Of a stretch of DNA of 64,000 nucleotides, positions 5,545-31,694 are shown piece by piece (position 1 is the stretch's first letter; each line of letters opens with the position of its first letter). Made by a program: the position numbers and the translations under genes. The notes beneath the pieces are model-generated. The model was not told the DNA's origin and did not search any database. It saw only the letters and a program-made list of their open reading frames with translations. The DNA is from an uncultured Bacteroidales bacterium (GTDB lineage: Bacteria; Bacteroidota; Bacteroidia; Bacteroidales; WCHB1-69), in NCBI GenBank assembly GCA_905233625.1, contig CAJOFJ010000004.1, positions 1-64,000 on the forward strand, given 5' to 3'.

Positions 5545-6777
5545 ATGAAATTCGACTTGGACAGCTACAAAGAAATCTCTGACTCGCTGATGCGGAACAA
5601 ACGGCGGAGTTTCCTCACCGGCTTCGGCATTTTCTGGGGCTTGTTCATGCTGTTGTTCCTCATCGGAGGCGGAAACGGACTGAAGCAGTTGCTTTCCAAA
5701 AATTTCTCGGGCTTCGCCACCAACACCATCATTATGGGGGCGGGCCAGACAGGCAAGCCGTACAAGGGTTTTGAGGAAGGACGTTACTGGCAATTGGAGT
5801 TCAATGACGTAGAACGGTTGAAACATCTATTTCCCGAATTAGCCATCATCACCCCGCAACTGTCGCAATGGGGTGTGGTCGCTGTCAACGAAGGCTATAC
5901 GGTCAACAGCAACATGCTGGGAGCGGAGGCCGACTATCAGTATGTAGAAACCCCGATACTGAAATATGGACGTTACCTCAACAATGTGGATATACAACAG
6001 CACCGGAAGGTATGTGTCATCGGCAAACAGATTTACCAGTCGCTGTTTCCGGAAGGCGGTGACCCCTGCGGACAGTTCATCAGTGTGAACTCTGTTTATT
6101 ATCAAGTAATTGGAGTGAATTACAGCAGCTCCAACATCAACATCAATGGCCGAAGCGAAGAAAGTGTTACCGTGCCCATTACAGTTTTACGTGACATTCT
6201 TAACACGGGAGATGCGGTCGGAATGATTTGCATGGTGGGACGAGACGGTGTGAAGATGAGCGACATGGAACCCCGCATCCGCCAAGCTGTCTACCGCAAG
6301 CATACCATTGCACCTGACGATGACGAGGCGCTTTTTATGCTCAACATGGAACCAATTTTCAAGATAATTGATAACCTTTTCAAAGGAGTGAATTTCCTGA
6401 TTTGGTTAGTTGGTATCGGCACCTTGCTGGCCGGCGCCATTGGGGTGAGCAACATCATGATGGTGGTGGTGAAAGAGCGCACCATCGAAATCGGCATCCG
6501 CAGGGCCATTGGAGCCACACCTTTCGACATTCTGTTCCAGATTGTCATGGAAGGCATCGTACTCACTTTGATAGCGGGCCTGTCGGCCATCGTGTTCTCG
6601 GTATTCATGCTGAATGCGCTTGAAGTAATCGCTCACCATGAAACCGCCTTCCAGATTAATTTTGGCACGGCGATATCAGCCTTTTTCCTGCTTACCATAC
6701 TCGGCATATTAGCGGGCATTGCCCCGGCCTACCGAGCCATGCATATAAAACCTGTGGATGCGATGAGAGATGAATAG
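5545..6777 (+). CDS. ABC transporter permease (MacB/FtsX-like)
   Basis: MKFDLDSYKEISDSLMRNKRRSFLTGFGIFWGLFML...; GVSNIMMVVVKERTIEIGIRRAIGATP; start moved from 5482 to the ATG at 5545. Confidence 0.9.
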   Translation: MKFDLDSYKEISDSLMRNKRRSFLTGFGIFWGLFMLLFLIGGGNGLKQLLSKNFSGFATNTIIMGAGQTGKPYKGFEEGRYWQLEFNDVERLKHLFPELAIITPQLSQWGVVAVNEGYTVNSNMLGAEADYQYVETPILKYGRYLNNVDIQQHRKVCVIGKQIYQSLFPEGGDPCGQFISVNSVYYQVIGVNYSSSNININGRSEESVTVPITVLRDILNTGDAVGMICMVGRDGVKMSDMEPRIRQAVYRKHTIAPDDDEALFMLNMEPIFKIIDNLFKGVNFLIWLVGIGTLLAGAIGVSNIMMVVVKERTIEIGIRRAIGATPFDILFQIVMEGIVLTLIAGLSAIVFSVFMLNALEVIAHHETAFQINFGTAISAFFLLTILGILAGIAPAYRAMHIKPVDAMRDE

Positions 6778-6859
6778 ATGTAGAGACGTTAAGACGTGGA
6801 GGCGGGGAGACATGCACTGCGTGCATTCGGGGAGACGGGAAGACATGAAGAAACAAATT

Positions 6860-6900
6860 CCCCTTCTATTAGAAGGGGTGGCCGAAGGCCGGGGTAGTGA
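6860..6900. repeat. REP-like double hairpin (CCCCTTCT ATT AGAAGGGG-T-GGCC GAA GGCC-GGGGTAGTGA)
   Basis: Reverse-orientation copy of the 45592 element with compensatory stem changes. Confidence 0.75.
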
Positions 6901-6932
6901 CGTAAATGTAAAATACAAATAATAAAAACACA

Positions 6933-8012
6933 ATGAAAAAAGGACTCAAAATTATCATTTTCACGCTGATTGGCCTGATTTTTATCGGCACTTTCGTTTT
7001 TCTGTTTCAGAAATCCAGAAAAAAAGAAATTCAGTATAACGCGAAGATGGATATTCAGCGGGAGGCTTTGATTACTGGCAAAATCAGTCCCCGCAATGAG
7101 GTGGCCATCAAGCCGCAAATCAACGGCATCATTGCCGAACTATACAAGGAAGCGGGACAGGAAGTGAAAGAAAACGAGGTGATTGCCAAACTGAAGGTGA
7201 TTCCCGACATGAACTCGCTGAGTGCAGCCCAAAGCCGTGTGCGACTGGCGGAAATCAACTACGAACAGGCTTTGAGCAATTACAAGCGGGAAAAGGCCCT
7301 TTACGACCAGAAGCTGATCAGCCAGGAATCCTTTGAGCAAACCACACAACTGCTGAACCAAGCTCGCGAGGAGAAATCGGCAGCCCAAGACGCTTTGGAG
7401 ATTATCCGCGATGGTGTGTCCTCCTCCAACGCCACTTCCAGCTCCACCCTGGTGCGCTCCACCATTTCGGGATTGATTCTGGATATTCCTGTCAAGGTGG
7501 GTAACTCTGTCATCCAGGCCAATACCCTTAACGATGGTACCACCGTGGCCACCATCGCCAACATGAACGACCTGATTTTCACGGGCAGTGTAGACGAAAC
7601 CGAAGTGGGCACACTCCAGGAGGGCATGCCGCTGATTATCACCATCGGGGCCTTGCAAAACCTGAGTTTTGAAGCCACTTTGGAATACATCGCACCCAAA
7701 GCGACCGAGAGCAACGGCACCAACAAATTTGAGATCAAAGCCGCCGTATTGCCGCAGAAAGAGCACAAAATACGTTCCGGTTACAGTGCCAACGCCAAAA
7801 TCATTCTTGAACAGGCCCCCGATGTATTAGCCATCCCCGAAAGTGCCCTCGAATTTGAAGGCGATTCAACCTTTGTCTATGTCAAAAAGGACGGCAACTT
7901 TACCCGACAGGCTGTCACCACGGGTTTGAGCGATGGCATCAACATTCAGATTACCAATGGGTTGAAAGAAGGCGATAAGGTCAGAGGTTCACAAATCATC
8001 TTCGATAAATAA
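6933..8012 (+). CDS. Efflux periplasmic adaptor (HlyD/MacA-like, MFP)
   Basis: N-terminal TM, lipoyl/coiled-coil pattern, GLILDIPVKVGNSVIQANTLNDGTTVATIAN. Confidence 0.88.
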   Translation: MKKGLKIIIFTLIGLIFIGTFVFLFQKSRKKEIQYNAKMDIQREALITGKISPRNEVAIKPQINGIIAELYKEAGQEVKENEVIAKLKVIPDMNSLSAAQSRVRLAEINYEQALSNYKREKALYDQKLISQESFEQTTQLLNQAREEKSAAQDALEIIRDGVSSSNATSSSTLVRSTISGLILDIPVKVGNSVIQANTLNDGTTVATIANMNDLIFTGSVDETEVGTLQEGMPLIITIGALQNLSFEATLEYIAPKATESNGTNKFEIKAAVLPQKEHKIRSGYSANAKIILEQAPDVLAIPESALEFEGDSTFVYVKKDGNFTRQAVTTGLSDGINIQITNGLKEGDKVRGSQIIFDK

Positions 8013-8018
8013 TAAGCC

Positions 8019-9344
8019 ATGAAAAAAATACTGTTCTGTTTTCTGATGAGTTGTGGTCTGCTTTTTGTACATGGGCAGGACAACACCACAAACAAAGGTC
8101 CTTGGACGCTGGACGATTGCATCCAATATGCCTTGGAGCATAACATCAGCATCAAACAAAGCCAAAACACCTGCCAACAGCGTTCCATCGAGCTGAACAC
8201 TGCCCGTAACAGCGTATGGCCAGAATTGCAAGCCAGTGGAAACCAAGGATTTAACTTTGGTCGTGGTCTTTCGGAGGACAACACCTACACCATGAACAGC
8301 ACTGCCAACACCTCTTTCAGCATTGGGGGCAGTTTGGACTTGTTCACAGGCTTGAGAGTGAAGAACAACATCACGATGGGCAAACTCAACCTGCAAGCCG
8401 CCACCGCCGACTACGAAAAAGCCAAAGACAACATCCGCATCTCGGTGATGCAAGCCTTTACGCAAATCCTGTACGACATGGAAATCAGCAAGGTGGCAGC
8501 GGAGCAAATCAGCATCGACTCCATGCAATTGAACCGACTCCAAGCCATGGAAAAGGCAGGGAAAGCGGGGTCTGCGGAGGTCGCCGCCCAAAAGTCCACA
8601 CTGGCCCAAAGCCAGCTCACCTACACGCAAGCTGCCAATCAGCTGAAGCTGGACTTGCTGGAACTTTCGCAGCTGTTGGAATTGAGCAGTCCCGACGGCT
8701 TTTCCATCGCTCCTTTGGACATCTCGCACTTTTCGGTCAAAGAATTGCCCAGCCCCGAGCAAGTATATGCCCAAGCAGTCGGAGTCAGACCAGAAGTCAA
8801 GGCTGAGGAGATCCGCTATGACTACGCCAAAACCAACATTGCCTTGGCCAAAAGCGGCTATATTCCCACTTTGTCGATGAATGGTGGTATCGGCACCAAC
8901 TATTATGCGTTGCTGGGCCACCAAAACAAATCATTCGGGCAGCAACTCAAGGATAACTTCAGTCCTTACCTGGGTTTCTCGCTATACATCCCCATCTTCG
9001 ACAAATTGGTGACCCGCAACAATGTTCGTAGCGCCAAACTGCAACTCAGCAACCAGCAATTGAAGCTGGACAATGTGAAAAAAACGCTGTATAAAGAGAT
9101 TCAGCAGGCCTATTACGGAGCTGTGAGCGCACGCGACAAATATAAAAGCAGCAAGACAGCTGCGGAAAGTTCCGAAGAAGCCTTCCTTTTGGAAAAAGCC
9201 CGCTATGAGAACGGCAAAGTCACATTAACAGAATTCAACGAAGCCAAGAACAATTACCTGAAAGCATCTTCAGACTTAGTGCAAGCACAATACGACTATA
9301 TCTATAAAGTGCAGTTGTTGGAGTTCTACCGGAGCGGAGAGTAA
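8019..9344 (+). CDS. TolC family outer membrane efflux protein
   Basis: Signal peptide; WTLDDCIQYALEHNISIKQSQ; coiled-coil repeats; follows MFP gene. Confidence 0.9.
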   Translation: MKKILFCFLMSCGLLFVHGQDNTTNKGPWTLDDCIQYALEHNISIKQSQNTCQQRSIELNTARNSVWPELQASGNQGFNFGRGLSEDNTYTMNSTANTSFSIGGSLDLFTGLRVKNNITMGKLNLQAATADYEKAKDNIRISVMQAFTQILYDMEISKVAAEQISIDSMQLNRLQAMEKAGKAGSAEVAAQKSTLAQSQLTYTQAANQLKLDLLELSQLLELSSPDGFSIAPLDISHFSVKELPSPEQVYAQAVGVRPEVKAEEIRYDYAKTNIALAKSGYIPTLSMNGGIGTNYYALLGHQNKSFGQQLKDNFSPYLGFSLYIPIFDKLVTRNNVRSAKLQLSNQQLKLDNVKKTLYKEIQQAYYGAVSARDKYKSSKTAAESSEEAFLLEKARYENGKVTLTEFNEAKNNYLKASSDLVQAQYDYIYKVQLLEFYRSGE

Positions 9345-10215: not shown

Positions 10216-11964
10216 TTAGCTATTCATTGACACGAGGAACTCCTCGTTGCTACGGGTATGTTCCATTCTTTCTTTCAAGAACGTCATGGCCTCCAAAGTG
10301 GTCATATCGGCCAGATGATTTCTCAGAATCCAAACCTTTTGTAAAACCTCCTGCGGTTGCAGCAAGTCGTCGCGACGGGTACTCGAAGCCACGATATCCA
10401 CAGCCGGGTAAATTCGTTTGTTGGACAATTTTCTATCCAGCTGCAACTCCATATTACCCGTACCCTTGAATTCCTCAAAGATTACCTCATCCATACGGGA
10501 ACCTGTTTCAATCAAAGCGGTGGAGATAATCGTCAGTGAACCACCATTTTCGATGTTACGGGCGGCACCAAAGAAGCGTTTGGGTTTCTGCAAGGCATTG
10601 GCCTCCACACCACCCGAAAGCACCTTGCCTGACGCTGGCGCCATGGTGTTAAACGCTCTGGCCAAACGAGTGATAGAGTCCAATAAAATACACACATCGT
10701 GACCGCATTCCACCATGCGTTTCGCTTTTTCAAGCACCATATTGGCAATACGCACATGGCGTTCTGCCGGTTCGTCAAAGGTAGAGGAAATCACCTCGGC
10801 ATTTACACTGCGCTGCATGTCAGTTACCTCTTCCGGACGCTCATCAATCAGGAGGATAATCAAATATATTTCAGGATGGTTGGCGGCAATAGCATTAGCT
10901 ATCTCCTTCAGTAACACTGTTTTACCAGTTTTCGGCTGGGCCACAATCAGACCACGCTGACCCTTACCGATGGGGGCAAACAAATCGATGACACGTGTGC
11001 TCAACGTCTCTCCCTGATGACCTGTCAAACGGATCTTTTTATCCGGGAACATCGGAGTGAGATAATCAAACGGCACACGGTCACGAATTTCTTCAGGATT
11101 ACGGCCATTGATTTTTTCAATTTTTGTCAAAGGAAAGAATTTCTCTCCATCTTTCGGCGGACGAATAGCCCCTTTGATGGTATCCCCATTTTTCAGACCA
11201 AATAATTTAATCTGAGAAGGAGACACATAAATATCGTCAGGAGAAGATAAATAATTGTAATCTGAAGAGCGCAGAAAACCGCAGGAATTGTCAGCATTGA
11301 TTTCCAGCACTCCTTCCGCCGTTACGGAGCCGTCATAACTGGCATTTTCCACCATACCCCATTGCTCATCGTACACCGTTGTTTTTTCGGCTGTTGCCGG
11401 AGCATGTTTTTCCTCTTCCTTTTCTGTTGTCTCTTCTTCAGCCGATTCATTTTCTTTTGTCAACACCAAATCCACTAATTCTGCCGATTCAAGATTCTTA
11501 TCCTCAAACGAATCATCGTCCAGCATAATATCATTCAACGCCTTGATATTCGTCTTGTCAATATTCTTGGATTTTTTTCTCTTCCGGGAGTTTTCTTGAG
11601 ATAATGATTCCACCACTGACATTTCAACATTATCATCAAGTGTCAAATCCAGCTGTTTCGAACTTTTCTTTCTTCCCTTTTTAGGTTTCTTCACCTCTTT
11701 TTTGTTTCCACTTTCCGACTGAATCAGCTGTTCCGCACTCAAGTTGGTTTGATCATCAATTTCCGGCACACCGACTGACACTTCTTGCATCTGGGGTTCC
11801 TCAACAATGACTTCGGCCAATGGTTGATTATCCGTGTCCGAATTTTTTTTATCATTTACAACAACCATTCCGGATGTTATTTTCTTTACATTTGAAGTAG
11901 CGACAGGACCTTTGCCAGGGACAGAAATCCGTTTCCTTTTTGATTTATTTTCAGTAGATTCCAT
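10216..11964 (-). CDS. rho: Transcription termination factor Rho with long charged N-terminal extension
   Basis: [50 protein letters not shown]. Confidence 0.95.
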
Positions 11965-12136
11965 ACAAGTAGAAAAGTAACTGCTATTTTCGATTGATTA
12001 AAAAAATGCTTGGGGATAGTTTTGCCATTGCTTGACGCAATCACGGGTGGACAATCGCCACCTTCAAAACCGCGGCAAAAATACAAAAAATTTTTAATAT
12101 TTCGGTCCAAGCCTCCAAAAATCAAAAAAAAAGTGA

Positions 12137-12144
12137 TAAATTTG
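12137..12144 (+). promoter_or_regulatory. -7 element TAAATTTG
   Basis: TAnnTTTG about 40 nt upstream of the ATG at 12181. Confidence 0.4.
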
Positions 12145-12180
12145 CACCCTCAAAATGAAACAACAACAATTGTAATTTTT

Positions 12181-14175
12181 ATGCTTATGAAAAAGTTACT
12201 ATCTATCGCTCTGTTAATCTTGTGTTTAACATTATTCCAAAGTGTATCTGCACAAATAAACAGCGGAATTCTACCACAGAGTGTAGTGGCACAATTATCT
12301 GAAAACAACGTACCACAATACGATGTGGCCACTCCTGACCTGAAGGCGTTTCAAGCCAAAAACGATGCTTCTTTCAATAATGGAACACTCTTTAAAGTTG
12401 CCATTGTTGTTCCTTTGCAACTTAGCACCGAAAATTCGGGTATTTGGGAACACACCGACGACGGATATGACATTTGGCGTCTCAAATTACACAATGAAAA
12501 CGCATTGGGATGCTGCGTATTATTCGACCATTTCATGTTACCGGAAGGTTCGCAATTTTTCGCATACAATAGCGATAAATCCTTAATATATGGTCCTTAT
12601 ACCCATGAGGATAATCCCTCTGGCGAGGAATACAGCAGTAATTTGTTCGTCAATGGCGATGTGATTTTGGAATATATTTCACCCCGACACCAGCTCAATT
12701 CATCAGATGCTCCCAACATTTCCATTGCCGGCTATAACTACTTTTTCCGTTCCGAAGGTCTTCCTGATCACAGGGTTCAAGGCAGCAAAGACGGTGATAC
12801 GGGTTATGGTGCTTCCCAAAGCTGTATGATCAACATCAACTGTTCGGAAGGTGACAACTGGAGAGTTCAGCAAAGAGGTGTTGCTCGCATGTTATGTTAT
12901 GGCATGGAAGATGGTTCTATTGTTAGCGGCTGGTGTTCAGGTACCCTGATTAACAACACTATGGGCGATGGAATCCCCTACTTTTTAACTGCTAACCACT
13001 GTGCTGATGGTTGCCCAACCTCACCTACCAACTACTGGAACTATTTCCAATTCTTTTTCAACTATGAATGCCCCTATTGCACATGCAATTCTGAGCCTGG
13101 CAAAATAACCTATAACGGATGTACAAAAATTGCCAACAGTCCTATCACAGGAGGTTCGGACTTTCTGCTGTTAAAAATTAATGGCAAGACATGGACCAAT
13201 CTTAAACAAGATGGTTTAGTGATGAATGGTTGGAACAAAACTTCTTATTCCTCCAACAATGCCCCCACTTCCGGTGTATCTATCCATCATCCCGCAGGTG
13301 ATGTGAAGAAAATTTCCACGTATAACACTCGATTGACCTCCGATCAATTCTCTGGTGGTGCAACCAATGCATACTGGAATGTGGCATGGGCACAAACCGC
13401 ACACGGAAGAAGTGTAACTGAGGGTGGTTCATCCGGTTCTCCCTTGTTCAATACCGAAGGTTTGGTAATTGGCACTCTTACTGGAGGAAGTTCTTCTTGT
13501 ACTAACTATTATGGCCGTGAACTGTATGGTAAAGTGTCATACCATTGGTCTTCAGCAGGTTCTACCAATGACAAAAAATTACAACCTTGGTTAGATCCTA
13601 TTCCTCTCTCTCAAAGTACTTGCAACTATCTTGATTTTACCAGTGGTTTATACACTATACCAGCTGCCCACATCTTCAATGCCAATACCACCAGTGGTTT
13701 CAATTTCTTGGTTTATAGTAACGGACCATGGACATTGTCTTATTTGAATGATCACAGCTGGTTTACAACCAGTACAGAATCCGGTACAGGTAATAGTGTT
13801 ATTACTGTCTCCTGCCAAGCTAACACAAATACTATTTCCCGCCGTGGTACCATGCTGATTACTAAATCCGACGGCTCCACTTTCCAAATTACTGTGAAAC
13901 AAGAAGGAGCAGCCTCCGGTATTTCAGTTATTGCCGAGAATGAGTTCACTATTTACCCGAACCCTGCTCACGACCAAATCAATATCGAATCTGTGGATCA
14001 TTTTATCACCAAAGTGGAAATCATCGATATGTTAGGCAAGGTGGTCTATAGCTATAATACCAATGGTGCCAACTCCTTGACACTGCCTGTCAGCCAATTG
14101 GAAAACGCCATGTATCTGATACGTATGACCACAGTGGACAACGAAGTGGTGTATAAGAAATTCTCGAAAAATTAA
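12181..14175 (+). CDS. Secreted trypsin-like (lysyl endopeptidase-like) protease with T9SS type A sorting domain
   Basis: Signal peptide MLMKKLLSIALLILCLTLFQSVSAQ; WCSGTLINN...PYFLTANHC and GGSSGSPLFN serine-protease motifs; C-terminal FTIYPNPAHDQINIE. Confidence 0.85.
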   Translation: MLMKKLLSIALLILCLTLFQSVSAQINSGILPQSVVAQLSENNVPQYDVATPDLKAFQAKNDASFNNGTLFKVAIVVPLQLSTENSGIWEHTDDGYDIWRLKLHNENALGCCVLFDHFMLPEGSQFFAYNSDKSLIYGPYTHEDNPSGEEYSSNLFVNGDVILEYISPRHQLNSSDAPNISIAGYNYFFRSEGLPDHRVQGSKDGDTGYGASQSCMININCSEGDNWRVQQRGVARMLCYGMEDGSIVSGWCSGTLINNTMGDGIPYFLTANHCADGCPTSPTNYWNYFQFFFNYECPYCTCNSEPGKITYNGCTKIANSPITGGSDFLLLKINGKTWTNLKQDGLVMNGWNKTSYSSNNAPTSGVSIHHPAGDVKKISTYNTRLTSDQFSGGATNAYWNVAWAQTAHGRSVTEGGSSGSPLFNTEGLVIGTLTGGSSSCTNYYGRELYGKVSYHWSSAGSTNDKKLQPWLDPIPLSQSTCNYLDFTSGLYTIPAAHIFNANTTSGFNFLVYSNGPWTLSYLNDHSWFTTSTESGTGNSVITVSCQANTNTISRRGTMLITKSDGSTFQITVKQEGAASGISVIAENEFTIYPNPAHDQINIESVDHFITKVEIIDMLGKVVYSYNTNGANSLTLPVSQLENAMYLIRMTTVDNEVVYKKFSKN

Positions 14176-20448: not shown

Positions 20449-21372
20449 TCAGTGCATATTTCGCTCTTTGAAGACTCCATTCTCATACCCCTGGATACGT
20501 TGGTTCTCCCCTGCCAAAAGCAATCGTTTTTCAGCCCAGAGACAATACTCCTCATTCATTTCGATGCCAAGGTATTTACGACCTAACTTCTTGGCCACCA
20601 CCGAGGTAGTTCCCGAACCCAAAAACGGATCGAAGACCAGACCGTCGGGAGGGCAAGAAGCCAGAATCAACTTGGCGATGAGTTTTTCGGGTTTCTGTGT
20701 GGGATGGTCAGTATTTTCCGGCATCGACCAATAGGGGACTGTGATATCATCCCAGAAATTCGACGGGCAAGTGAGGCGGAATTTACCATCTTCCCCTTGT
20801 TCCCAATCTTTCGGTACTCCCCCCTCGCGATAAGGGGCCAGCACTTTTTTTTTCTGTTTAACCGACTCTAAATCAAAATAATAATCATTTTTATCCTGAA
20901 CTCCGAACCAGATATCTTCCATGCCGTTCTTCCAATTCTTGGAAGCCCCCCTGCCCTTCTCGCGCTGCCAGGTGATGCGGTTCATCACCGTCAGATTCTC
21001 TTCCATCACCTGCTGCAAGGCCGAAGTGGATTTCCAATCACCGCATAAATACAATGAACCGGTGGGTTTCAGCAACTTGCACAACTGAGGAAACCACGAA
21101 CGCAAGTATTCCAGATACTGGCTTCCCGTGCTTGCTTTAAACTGGAATCCATTGAAATTTTTAGACAAATTATAGGGCGGATCCACAATAATCAAGTCAG
21201 CCATTTGTGACGGCAGCTGCGACAACAGCAACAGAGTATCCCCCTGTATCGTTCTGTTAATCAAATCAGTATCATTCTTGACCTGATGGGCGGACAATAG
21301 ACGTGACCGGAGAGAAATTCTCTCCTGCTCTGTCAGGGTTAAAGTTTGGTTGCGGGGAGCCCTTTCTTTCAT
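20449..21372 (-). CDS. Site-specific DNA-adenine methyltransferase (beta-type order)
   Basis: LIIVDPPYNLSKNFNG ... VFDPFLGSGTTSVVAKKLGRKYLGIEMNEEYCLWAEKRL. Confidence 0.88.
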   Translation of the reverse strand: MKERAPRNQTLTLTEQERISLRSRLLSAHQVKNDTDLINRTIQGDTLLLLSQLPSQMADLIIVDPPYNLSKNFNGFQFKASTGSQYLEYLRSWFPQLCKLLKPTGSLYLCGDWKSTSALQQVMEENLTVMNRITWQREKGRGASKNWKNGMEDIWFGVQDKNDYYFDLESVKQKKKVLAPYREGGVPKDWEQGEDGKFRLTCPSNFWDDITVPYWSMPENTDHPTQKPEKLIAKLILASCPPDGLVFDPFLGSGTTSVVAKKLGRKYLGIEMNEEYCLWAEKRLLLAGENQRIQGYENGVFKERNMH

Positions 21373-21389
21373 AAGCAACGTAAGAAAAG

Positions 21390-27436: not shown

Positions 27437-29317
27437 ATGAGAGTAAACACAAAACAAGCGGTAAAATTGTTCTTCCAAAACCCTTCTTTAGAACAGGTGT
27501 TTAAGGAAGCCATTGCCAATTCTCTTGATGCAAATGCTACAGAGATTAAAGTCAATGTTTTCATTGATTCTTTTGAAAAACAAGAAACGTTGCAAATAGA
27601 GATTGTTGATAATGGAGAAGGTTTTACGGATGCGCGTTACGATAAGTTTTGTGAGTTGTTGAAAGTTGAAGAAGATACTCACAAAGGTGTTGGCCGATTG
27701 GTGTATCTAAGTTATTTCGACAAAATCGAAGTCTCGAGCTATTTTGGCGGGAAGCATCGTACTTTTACTTTTAACGATGAATTTGATAAGGAAAAAACTG
27801 ACATGAAGTTGTCAGTTGACGAGACGAGGAAACAAGAAACGACGCTGGCCTTTAAGAATTGTTCATTGCAAAGGTTAAGTAGTAATTCTGTCATAACCCC
27901 AGAGTATTTAAAACGGCAGATTCTGCTGGAGTTTTACCCTAGGTTGTATTTGCTGAAAAAAGCTGGAAAAGAAATCAAGATTACTTTCAAAATAGATATA
28001 CCTCATAAGAGCAAGAAACACTTTGTTGGTTCTTATGAGAAAGAGATTTCGAGCAATGATATTCCAGACATGCAAACAACACCTATTAATGCTGATGTTG
28101 TGAAAATGTATGAGAATACCCAATTGGATTATTCAGTAAAGAAATCGGATCCGTATTCGGAAACGTTTTTAATGACCGCACTGTGTGTTGATAACAGGAC
28201 TCAAGTGTTGGAGGACATTATAGCGCCTGAGAATTTGCCTAAGTTGGGATATTCGATAGTCTTTATTTTACGTTCGTCGTTTTTTGATGGCAAAGTTGAT
28301 GCGGCAAGACAAACGCTTACATTGAAAGAGGCGGATCTAAAGACAATTAAAGCTTTGTTTAGGGAAAAAGTTGCAGAGATTATTGAAAGGGAGATTCCTT
28401 CAATTAAAGAACAAAACCAGAAAACAAGAGAATCATTGAATAAGACTTATCCTCATCTTTTAGGCTATTTTAAGAAAGAAGAAGTGGGTATTATAGAACG
28501 TTCTCAATCTATTGAGGAAGCTCAGAAACGTTTTATGCGAGACCAAAAGGACATTTTGGAAGCACAATCATTAGAAGGTGATAGGTATGATAAAGCTCTG
28601 GATGTGTCTTCAAGAACTTTAGCCCAATACATTTTATATAGGGAAAAGATAATCCAAAAAGTTGAAGCTATAACAAAAGACAATCCTGAAGCAGACATCC
28701 ATAACATTATTCTTCCTCAAAAAAACGTGTTCAAAGAAGGTGATTTAGATTGTATTTATAACAATAATCTTTGGCTACTTGACAACAAGTATATGACATA
28801 CACAACGGCGATGTCAGATAAGACGATGAAGCAGGTGATTGAAGAAATAACACAAACGCCAGCGGAAACTGACAATGATCGCCCTGATATAGTCGTGATG
28901 TTTTCAAATGATCCTCAGAACTCTCAAGACAAGTCTGTTGATGTCGTTGTTATTGAACTCAAGAAAAGAGGGATTAAACTTGCAAAAACAGAAGAAGCCA
29001 TCAGCCAACTGAAGCAACGTGCTATTAAGTTGTTGAAATACTATCCAAATAAGATCCAACGGATGTGGTTTTATGCCATCGTTGAATTCAATGATGAGTT
29101 CAAGTTGTCGCTAATCAATGATGAATACACGCCTTTGTTTTCCAAAGACAGTTTGTATTATAAAGAGAATAAGCTACAACTATCACTTGATGACCCGACC
29201 AAATATCCAATCGGTACGTATGTGCTTTCCATCGATGCATTTATTAAGGACGCAAAAGCAAACAATGAGGTGTTTTTGAATATACTTAAAGATGGCTTTA
29301 AGCAAAAACAACAGTGA
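27437..29317 (+). CDS. GHKL (Hsp90/MutL-type) ATPase with putative C-terminal PD-(D/E)XK nuclease domain
   Basis: FKEAIANSLDANAT, EIVDNGEGF, HKGVGRLVY (GHKL boxes); C-terminal RPDIVVMF...VDVVVIELKKRG. Confidence 0.75.
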   Translation: MRVNTKQAVKLFFQNPSLEQVFKEAIANSLDANATEIKVNVFIDSFEKQETLQIEIVDNGEGFTDARYDKFCELLKVEEDTHKGVGRLVYLSYFDKIEVSSYFGGKHRTFTFNDEFDKEKTDMKLSVDETRKQETTLAFKNCSLQRLSSNSVITPEYLKRQILLEFYPRLYLLKKAGKEIKITFKIDIPHKSKKHFVGSYEKEISSNDIPDMQTTPINADVVKMYENTQLDYSVKKSDPYSETFLMTALCVDNRTQVLEDIIAPENLPKLGYSIVFILRSSFFDGKVDAARQTLTLKEADLKTIKALFREKVAEIIEREIPSIKEQNQKTRESLNKTYPHLLGYFKKEEVGIIERSQSIEEAQKRFMRDQKDILEAQSLEGDRYDKALDVSSRTLAQYILYREKIIQKVEAITKDNPEADIHNIILPQKNVFKEGDLDCIYNNNLWLLDNKYMTYTTAMSDKTMKQVIEEITQTPAETDNDRPDIVVMFSNDPQNSQDKSVDVVVIELKKRGIKLAKTEEAISQLKQRAIKLLKYYPNKIQRMWFYAIVEFNDEFKLSLINDEYTPLFSKDSLYYKENKLQLSLDDPTKYPIGTYVLSIDAFIKDAKANNEVFLNILKDGFKQKQQ

Positions 29318-29318
29318 T

Positions 29319-30492
29319 ATGGAAACTGGAGAAAAGAAAAACATACCTATCCTCCGCTTCCCCGATTTTGTAAATGATGGGGAATGGGAAGAAGCAAAAG
29401 TTGGTGATGTTATCAATACACTAACACCACCAAAGAAATTAACTTCAAGTGAATATGAAAAAACAGGGAAATATCCAATAATAGACCAATCACAAAATTT
29501 CATTTGTGGTTATTCAGATGACGAGGATGCTTTGATGAATCATAATAATGAAGATTTGATTGTTTTTGGGGATCACACCTGTGTTTTGAAATTTGTTAGT
29601 TTCCCGTTTATTCAGGGTGCGGATGGAATAAAGATTATCAAGTCTAAAGATTCGAATAAACTTGTTGAGTCTTTCCTTTTTCAGTCTTTACTAAATAATC
29701 CTGTAGTTTCGAGGGAATATAAAAGACATTTTTCTGAATTAAAAGAAAAGGAGCTCTGTTTTTCGCATAATATTGCTGAACAACAAAAAATTTCATCATG
29801 TCTTTTTTCGATGGATGCATATATTTCAGCAACAAAGGAAAAACTAGAACTTTTGAAAACATACAAGAAAGGCCTGATGCAGAATCTTTTCCCCGCCAAA
29901 GGCAAAAAACTACCTGAACTACGCTTCAAGGAATTTGAGAAGGAAGGGCAATGGGTAGAAAAAAGATTGGGAGAGGTTACAAAAGATGTAAATCGTAGAA
30001 ACAAAAGCAATCGGAACCTTCCCATTTATTCAATTAGCAATAAAGACGGTATTATTCTTCAATCCGAGCAGTTTGATGGTCTTGACAGTATTAGCAGAGG
30101 ATACGATACTTCGTTATACAAAATAGTTACAAGCAATACTTTTGCATATAATCCAGCCAGAATAAATGTAGGTTCTATAGGATATAGTGTCATTGTATGT
30201 GTGCTTTAAAACAACTGAAGATGTTGATGATTCGTTTTTAATGTATTTCTTCGACACTTCATCTTTTAACCAAAGTGTGGAAAACAATGTGGAAGGAGGA
30301 ATTAGGAGTTATTTGTTTTATGAGAATTTCTCGAAAATTAAAATATTGTTTCCGTCTATTTCGGAGCAAAAGAGAATAGTATCTTTCTTGAAAGCTATAG
30401 ATGAAATAATCGATGCGCTTTCCAATAAGATTTCTGAATTGGAAAGATACAAAATAGGAATGATGCAAAAAATGTTTCCAATAATTAAATGA
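29319..30492 (+). pseudogene. hsdS: Type I restriction specificity subunit S, split by frameshift at about 30180
   Basis: Frame 3 ORF to 30209 (TRD1, central LKTYKKGLMQNLFPAKGKKLPELRF, part of TRD2) continues in frame 1 (30187-30492: YVCFKTTEDVDDSF...LERYKIGMMQKMFP). Confidence 0.85.
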
Positions 30493-31694
30493 CAAACAAA
30501 ATGAAAAACAAACCAAAGATATACGAGTATAAAACTTTGAATAATGTTGTAACAAGATTACGCGATGATTTGTCCAAAGAGTCAGGATCAAAAGTCGTGT
30601 TGTTGTATGCATTCAACAGGACAGGAAAAACACGTTTGTCGATGGCTTTTAAAGACAAAGGGAAGAAAAAGAATAAAGGCAAAGCGGATACATTGTATTA
30701 TAATGCTTTCACAGAAGACCTGTTTGTATGGAACAATGATTTGGAACACGATCAAATCAGATATTTGAAAATCAATGAGCAGTCTAACTTTTTCAGTGGT
30801 TTTAAAGGTTTGGCTTTGGAAGAAAGAATACACGGTCATCTTGAAAGATTTGCTGAGTTTAATTTTAAGATAGATTATGATGCTTGGAAAGTGTCTTTTA
30901 GTCGAGAGATTCCCAATCCCAAATACAATCCGCATAATGATGAACCTGAAAGAATAATTCAAGAAAATATTAAAATATCGAGAGGAGAAGAGAATATTTT
31001 TGTCTTTTCTGTTTTCATGTCAATATGCGATTTAGTCATTGAAGGTAAAGAGGAATATAGTTGGGTGAAATACATTTACATTGACGACCCTATTTCATCA
31101 TTGGACGAAAACAATGCTATCACACTGGCATCCGACTTGTCAAATATGATTAAAGATGATTTCGAGAAGCACAATGATACTGGAGGTCACAGGAAATACG
31201 TGATTTCTTCTCATCATTCTCTGTTTTTCAACATTGTCTATAACGAGTTGAAAAAATCATCGTCCAACTCATATTTCCTGTATAAGACCAAGAAAGAAAC
31301 ATACAAGTTGCAATCGACAGACGATTCGCCTTTCTTTCATCATATTGAGCAGCTTTGTGAATTGAACCAAGTTGTCAAACAATACGAAGAGATTGAGAAA
31401 GGGGATTCAAAATTGGAACAATCATCCATTCTTAAGACATATCATTTCAATATGCTTCGTGCCATTTTCGAAAAAACATCTATCTTCTTCGGGCATGAGG
31501 ATTTTTCATATTGTTTAAAAGATTTCCCAGACAAAGAATTGTTTGTACGTGCTGTACAAATAATGAGTCATGGGAAATACTCGATATTTGCCCCCAAAGG
31601 AATGTTAAAAGAAAATGCGGATTTGTTCGTTCGTATTTTTAAGACATTTGTCGAACAATATAAATTTGAATTACCGGAAATTTTTTTTGAATAA
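30489..31694 (+). CDS. PrrC-like anticodon nuclease (ABC-type ATPase + ACNase domain)
   Basis: LLYAFNRTGKTRLS (P-loop), TLYYNAFTEDLFVWNNDL (PrrC-box-like), KISRGEENIFVFSVF signature, YIDDPISSLD, R324xxxE328...H361 matching the PrrC R/E/H triad spacing. Confidence 0.8.
   Translation: MTNKMKNKPKIYEYKTLNNVVTRLRDDLSKESGSKVVLLYAFNRTGKTRLSMAFKDKGKKKNKGKADTLYYNAFTEDLFVWNNDLEHDQIRYLKINEQSNFFSGFKGLALEERIHGHLERFAEFNFKIDYDAWKVSFSREIPNPKYNPHNDEPERIIQENIKISRGEENIFVFSVFMSICDLVIEGKEEYSWVKYIYIDDPISSLDENNAITLASDLSNMIKDDFEKHNDTGGHRKYVISSHHSLFFNIVYNELKKSSSNSYFLYKTKKETYKLQSTDDSPFFHHIEQLCELNQVVKQYEEIEKGDSKLEQSSILKTYHFNMLRAIFEKTSIFFGHEDFSYCLKDFPDKELFVRAVQIMSHGKYSIFAPKGMLKENADLFVRIFKTFVEQYKFELPEIFFE

Follow-up and report, generated by a model that had tools for sequence, protein, structure and literature searches.

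What does a GHKL ATPase fused to a nuclease-like domain do in the middle of a type I restriction-modification (R-M) operon? The question is raised by an ORF in the window, i.e. the whole 64,000-nucleotide stretch of Bacteroidales DNA analysed here, in which the genes run in the order hsdR - GHKL - hsdS - prrC-like - hsdM (Table 1). The initial annotation, made from the letters alone, had read the ORF at 27437-29317 as a GHKL ATPase joined to a putative PD-(D/E)XK nuclease inside an hsd locus. Its placement of the ORF proved exact (626 aa, ATG), and so did the hsd context, hsdR being the adjoining upstream gene and hsdS the adjoining downstream one. The gene is present in a single copy in the source genome (2.7 Mb, 56 contigs). 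We propose, with a probability of roughly 0.78, that its product is a single-chain immune effector which cuts DNA, belongs to the paraMORC3 / GHKL-Shedu family (type I-D Shedu) and serves as an accessory in a type I R-M operon that contains a PrrC homologue as well.

Table 1. Coordinates of the GHKL-nuclease gene, its two modules and the surrounding type I operon in the window.
Feature	Coordinates	Strand	Basis
hsdR, type I restriction subunit, 1002 aa	24406..27414	+	TIGR00348 1.8e-118, PADLOC REase_I
GHKL-nuclease (paraMORC3 / GHKL-Shedu), 626 aa, ATG start	27437..29317	+	ORF and homologue alignments
GHKL + S5 (gyrase/MutL-type) ATPase module, ~residues 1-330	27437..28426	+	Pfam and AF2 model
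Predicted C-terminal PD-(D/E)XK nuclease domain, ~residues 378-626; E418, D484, E507, K509, Q524	28568..29314	+	23-homologue conservation and hhalign to Shedu
hsdS, specificity subunit, two overlapping frames (to 30209; from 30187)	29319..30492	+	Methylase_S in both frames
PrrC-like anticodon nuclease, 401 aa, ABC ATPase and HEPN-like R324-E328...H361	30489..31694	+	PADLOC PrrC 1.9e-116
hsdM, type I methyltransferase subunit, 527 aa	31697..33280	+	TIGR00497 3.6e-119

The N-terminal half carries all the GHKL boxes that had been noticed at the outset (E24AIAN28, D58NGEGF and HKGVGR at residue 82), and Pfam recognises HATPase_c_3 (2.5e-9) and HATPase_c (1.2e-6), both passing the curated cut-offs. 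In our alignment of 23 homologues, which includes relatives down to ~20% identity, E24, N28, D58, N59, G60, G62, G84, G86 and R87 are identical in every sequence, i.e. the ExxxN, DxGxG and GxG motifs of paraMORC3 proteins are intact throughout. An S5-type domain, likewise a paraMORC3 feature, follows the GHKL domain; two of its basic residues are kept in 23/23 (R291) and 22/23 (R254) homologues. PDB searches with the single sequence and with a profile returned weak GHKL matches and nothing else. The AF2 model of the N-terminal half resembles GyrB 43-kDa modules and matches the ATPase modules of GyrB, ParE, MLH1 and SMCHD1 in the PDB, with E-values down to 5.5e-10. The PADLOC profile TmtA, which we take to be Tiamat, matched one of 11 relatives weakly (0.0028) and did not match the window protein.

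For the C-terminal half, the motif RPDIVVMF begins at residue 482 and VDVVVIELKKRG at residue 501, so that both elements of the initial reading stood, while the spacing of about 14 residues given there did not: 11 residues separate the two. The helix noted behind the nuclease motif is there too, EEAISQLKQRAIKLLKYYP beginning at residue 519. E418, H422, W446, S460, D484, E507 and K509 are identical in 23/23 homologues, and Q524 is kept in 22. The E-D-ExK motif of paraMORC3 is thus present in all 23, with the RE fold assigned solely through profile comparison. D502, which lies inside the motif first pointed out, varies in distant members, and therefore the PD aspartate is D484. The Pfam scan recognised no domain in this part of the protein, and SduA_C (DUF4263) had zero matches at E<=1 in the window protein and 10 relatives. 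We aligned the 23-sequence C-terminal profile by hhalign with a reference of 13 Shedu proteins, Shedu having been found by PF14082 in 12/242 genomes of the same class, and obtained a probability of 96.2% (P 2e-9, score 72) with D484, ExK and Q524 in register. None of twenty column-shuffled profiles exceeded a score of 17 (0.32%), and the N-terminal half came to 11 (0.05%); with another PD-(D/E)XK family, the HsdR N-terminus, the C-terminal domain reached 23%, and with one YhcG sequence 33%. Since distant members alone gave 95.9% and the close clade alone 65.8%, the Shedu link rests mainly on the whole family.

Indeed, the comparison with Shedu and the conservation of the acidic and lysine residues (E418, D484, E507 and K509, 23/23) were among the checks suggested in the initial annotation, and both bear out its fusion of a GHKL ATPase with a PD-(D/E)XK nuclease. 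The sequence comparisons thus support a predicted C-terminal domain of PD-(D/E)XK type, a Shedu-like nuclease. Structure prediction was of use for the ATPase half only: in the full-length AF2 model (13 sequences), pLDDT is ~27-45 over most of residues 394-518, and the C-terminal domain modelled by itself (14 sequences) remained at low confidence with a pLDDT of 54. A PDB search with this low-confidence model found nothing at E<=0.001; its weak polymerase-beta matches, all above that value, were dismissed as noise.

The gene is under purifying selection. Measured against the nearest relatives, which are close enough for synonymous sites to be unsaturated, dN/dS comes to 0.06-0.07 in residues 1-330 and to about 0.02-0.03 in residues 401-626. 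In the comparison of the window with four of the loci (L002, L003, L004 and L012), synonymous divergence drops from ~1.4-1.5 in residues 1-330 to ~0.6 in residues 401-626, and because of this drop the 3' part of the gene looks as if it had been exchanged by later recombination.

To which family does the protein belong? It is a member of an already known one, paraMORC3 / GHKL-type Shedu. In their 2008 paper, Iyer, Abhiman and Aravind describe paraMORC3 as GHKL and S5 domains followed by a C-terminal RE-fold domain with E-D-ExK, occurring R-M-associated or standalone in proteobacteria and Bacteroidetes, and propose that ATPase and nuclease work in a MutL-like manner (PMC2292703). The window protein shares the architecture, the E-D-ExK motif and the R-M linkage; the text of that paper makes no mention of hsd operons, whereas the window subclade sits inside one (PMC2292703). 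A 2025 study in Nature Microbiology described VcSduA from Vibrio (GHKL and DUF4263; type I-D Shedu), which its authors equate with paraMORC3 (PMC12137116). VcSduA protects against Drexlerviridae and vibriophage X29, loses defence upon E27A (ATPase) or K557A (nuclease), adjoins grwAB and defends alone; protection at every infection level tested, with host growth preserved, marks it as acting by direct restriction rather than suicide (PMC12137116). The two domains come in the same order in both proteins, but the window protein is the shorter of the two, is only distantly similar in sequence and lies in an hsd operon rather than next to grwAB. The family is tied to VcSduA indirectly, through a Salinivibrio relative (L027) whose E27 and K556 align with E24 and K509 of the window protein, so that the GHKL glutamate (E24/E27) and the nuclease lysine (K509/K557) can be equated. 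The mutation experiment proposed in the initial annotation has thus in effect already been done on a relative, VcSduA, and its idea of an ATP-gated nuclease with MutL-analogous logic finds support in these ATPase and nuclease mutants (PMC12137116) and in the 2008 proposal (PMC2292703). The annotation also suggested that the protein might sense phage DNA or failed restriction; the gene of such operons with an established part in the response to failed restriction is the PrrC homologue close by.

Other Shedu and R-M systems resemble the locus in part. EcSduA binds to the ends of DNA and makes nicks at a constant distance, and defence has also been published for it (review PMC12904381); its N-terminal region differs from the GHKL type, and the end preference is a feature of EcSduA. 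EcoprrI likewise has the gene of a PrrC anticodon nuclease inside a type I R-M operon, where PrrC punishes inhibition of the R-M enzyme (PMC3874165, PMC12707154), but no GHKL-nuclease has been described there (PMC3874165), in contrast to the hsdR-GHKL-hsdS-prrC-hsdM order of the window. MORC proper was rejected, as neither the window protein nor the S5 region of any of the 23 homologues contains GhXhhpXXRhl.

The operon in the window is compact. Twenty-two bases separate hsdR from the GHKL gene, hsdS probably starts with the ATG at 29319, immediately past the GHKL stop codon (29315-29317), hsdS and prrC overlap by four bases, and two bases lie between prrC and hsdM. The PrrC assignment is based on the profile match and on R324, E328 and H361, which are kept in four aligned loci. 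The two hsdS frames (305 and 101 aa) overlap within the second recognition domain, and the split at 30180-30215 is probably due to a frameshift, with a small deletion or an error of assembly as alternatives; hsdS is full length in L012 and L014. In L002 (10856-11524) and L004 (7750-8418), hsdS encodes 222 aa with a single recognition domain, which makes it a specificity subunit of half the normal size. The genes flanking the operon look ordinary metabolic, acyl-CoA-synthetase-like and methylmalonyl-CoA-mutase-like ORFs by inspection. An N6_N4_Mtase gene (3.7e-45) lies at 20449-21378 on the minus strand, ~3 kb upstream of hsdR and beside a LytTR regulator.

Is the placement within an hsd operon a recurrent one? 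A genome scan yielded 16 loci with relatives, chiefly from rumen and gut Bacteroidales MAGs; the distribution is patchy (8/393 Bacteroidales genomes carry a relative at E<=1e-40), and the phage collection searched held none. In nine genomes (the window, L002, L003, L004, L005, L006, L008, L012 and L013), hsdR lies directly upstream and hsdS directly downstream, and L014 holds the other half of the L013 gene. Even in the most divergent of the nine, in which hsdR is merely 57-69% identical, the hsdR-GHKL-hsdS order is kept. The slot between hsdS and hsdM is occupied by a PrrC homologue in the window, L002, L004, L008, L012 and L014, by a YhcG/DUF1016 nuclease in L005 and by a different ORF in L006, while the L003 contig ends there. 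In L008, hsdR is broken into two ORFs (5991-8986) next to an intact GHKL gene. Thus, what is unusual about the locus is the repeated placement of the gene inside a type I restriction operon, often together with a PrrC-like anticodon nuclease.

Other relatives keep other company. L009 and L010, which are close relatives, have the gene beside two C5 methyltransferases and a McrB-like AAA protein, in L010 also Vsr; in L011 it is accompanied by an AAA/DUF3226 pair. In L015 (Lentisphaeria, 41% identity) and L027 (Vibrionaceae, ~21% identity), the gene follows hsdS directly in a type I operon; L015 additionally contains RhuM and a reverse transcriptase (RVT_1, 2.3e-10) at 10901-12421, which separates the GHKL gene from hsdR. 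For relatives of ~42-51% identity in other Bacteroidota, comparison of the neighbours with a small reference set found no adjoining hsd or methyltransferase gene, and therefore R-M is not needed for function generally; several plasmid relatives also have no hsd or methyltransferase gene immediately adjoining. The occurrence described for paraMORC3, R-M-linked or standalone in proteobacteria and Bacteroidetes, hence holds for these relatives. Two Alistipes MAGs contain GHKL pieces (L016, 9001-10068, and L017, 9001-9294; 297 and 95 matched residues), which are likely decaying copies, because they are N-terminal pieces alone in an unchanged upstream gene layout.

In a maximum-likelihood tree of 32 proteins, the window protein falls into a 12-row clade with support of 100/100, which comprises every Bacteroidales hsd-linked and C5-linked member as well as L011 and L007 and whose nearest outgroups are standalone. 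The R-M-linked Bacteroidales forms thus group together in a single clade, surrounded by relatives that are mostly standalone. The type I-linked L015 and L027 fall outside this clade, and therefore the linkage to type I R-M was probably gained more than once.

In those hsd loci that most resemble the window, the genes diverge very unequally: hsdR, GHKL and hsdM are 87-100% identical, whereas the window differs from the others in hsdS (27-39% identity) and PrrC (28-40%). Across all five other loci, the window PrrC likewise shows 28-40% identity, next to an hsdM of 78-88%. That a fixed hsdR-GHKL-hsdM frame encloses a variable hsdS-prrC section may be a sign of PrrC being matched to HsdS. L002 and L004 have nearly identical hsdS and likewise PrrC (97%), while L012 and L014 combine a PrrC identity of 97% with an hsdS identity of 64%, so the two are not strictly paired.

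MutL and gyrase B dimerise on ATP binding and clamp DNA. By analogy, the encoded protein is probably an ATP-controlled DNA-cutting defence protein: upon ATP binding, the GHKL and S5 module would dimerise and close as a clamp on DNA, which would position or free the C-terminal PD-(D/E)XK domain to cut the DNA held. The likeliest substrate would be incoming DNA with free ends, i.e. injected linear phage genomes or breaks made by HsdR, and we speculate that the protein acts beside or after type I restriction, while its PrrC neighbour would punish inhibition of the R-M complex. Going further, GHKL-Shedu of this Bacteroidales clade might be an obligate type I R-M accessory, its ATP-clamp end processing coupled to HsdR cleavage. 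The operon would then have three layers, type I restriction, GHKL-Shedu and PrrC, and its hsdS-prrC middle would be swapped between strains; we put this forward tentatively.

The conserved position could also mean that the protein is a dedicated working subunit of the type I enzyme, with a clamp that loops or remodels DNA, a nuclease that processes HsdR products and no activity alone. The very tight operon around the gene, with 22 bases behind hsdR and the hsdS ATG right after the stop, the order fixed in nine genomes despite the hsdR divergence, and the joint conservation of GHKL, hsdR and hsdM while hsdS and prrC turn over would all fit, as would the DNA looping between recognition and cut sites that Iyer et al. 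proposed for paraMORC3 (PMC2292703). However, the same 12-row clade has other partners, C5 methyltransferases in L009 and L010 and AAA/DUF3226 in L011, its closest outgroups are standalone and VcSduA defends alone (PMC12137116), which makes an inert subunit doubtful.

It appears unlikely that the nuclease is an abortive-infection switch, released onto host DNA when inhibition of hsd signals failed restriction. Type I operons do carry such guards, PrrC two genes downstream being one (PMC12707154), but that slot is then already taken, no antitoxin or inhibitor partner was seen at the locus, and the direct restriction by VcSduA preserves host growth at all tested infection levels (PMC12137116). 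A MutL-like repair enzyme that sits at the locus by chance would share with MutL the coupling of a GHKL and S5 ATPase to a C-terminal nuclease and a similar working logic, but the nuclease domain is of another kind, Shedu-like. The weak match to the MutL family TIGR00585 (26.5 bits against a cut-off of 180, 47 residues covered) led us to reject MutL membership, and together with the patchy distribution and the R-M linkage of the closest relatives it renders a repair role highly improbable. We therefore retain the reading as a paraMORC3 / GHKL-Shedu immune effector.

In summary, our analysis adds rumen Bacteroidales to the range of the GHKL-Shedu family, and the parts worth following are the conserved placement in hsd operons and the turnover of hsdS-prrC. 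Comparing the R-M-linked clade with its mostly standalone kin is a natural way to ask whether an immune nuclease that works by itself can come to depend on a restriction enzyme.
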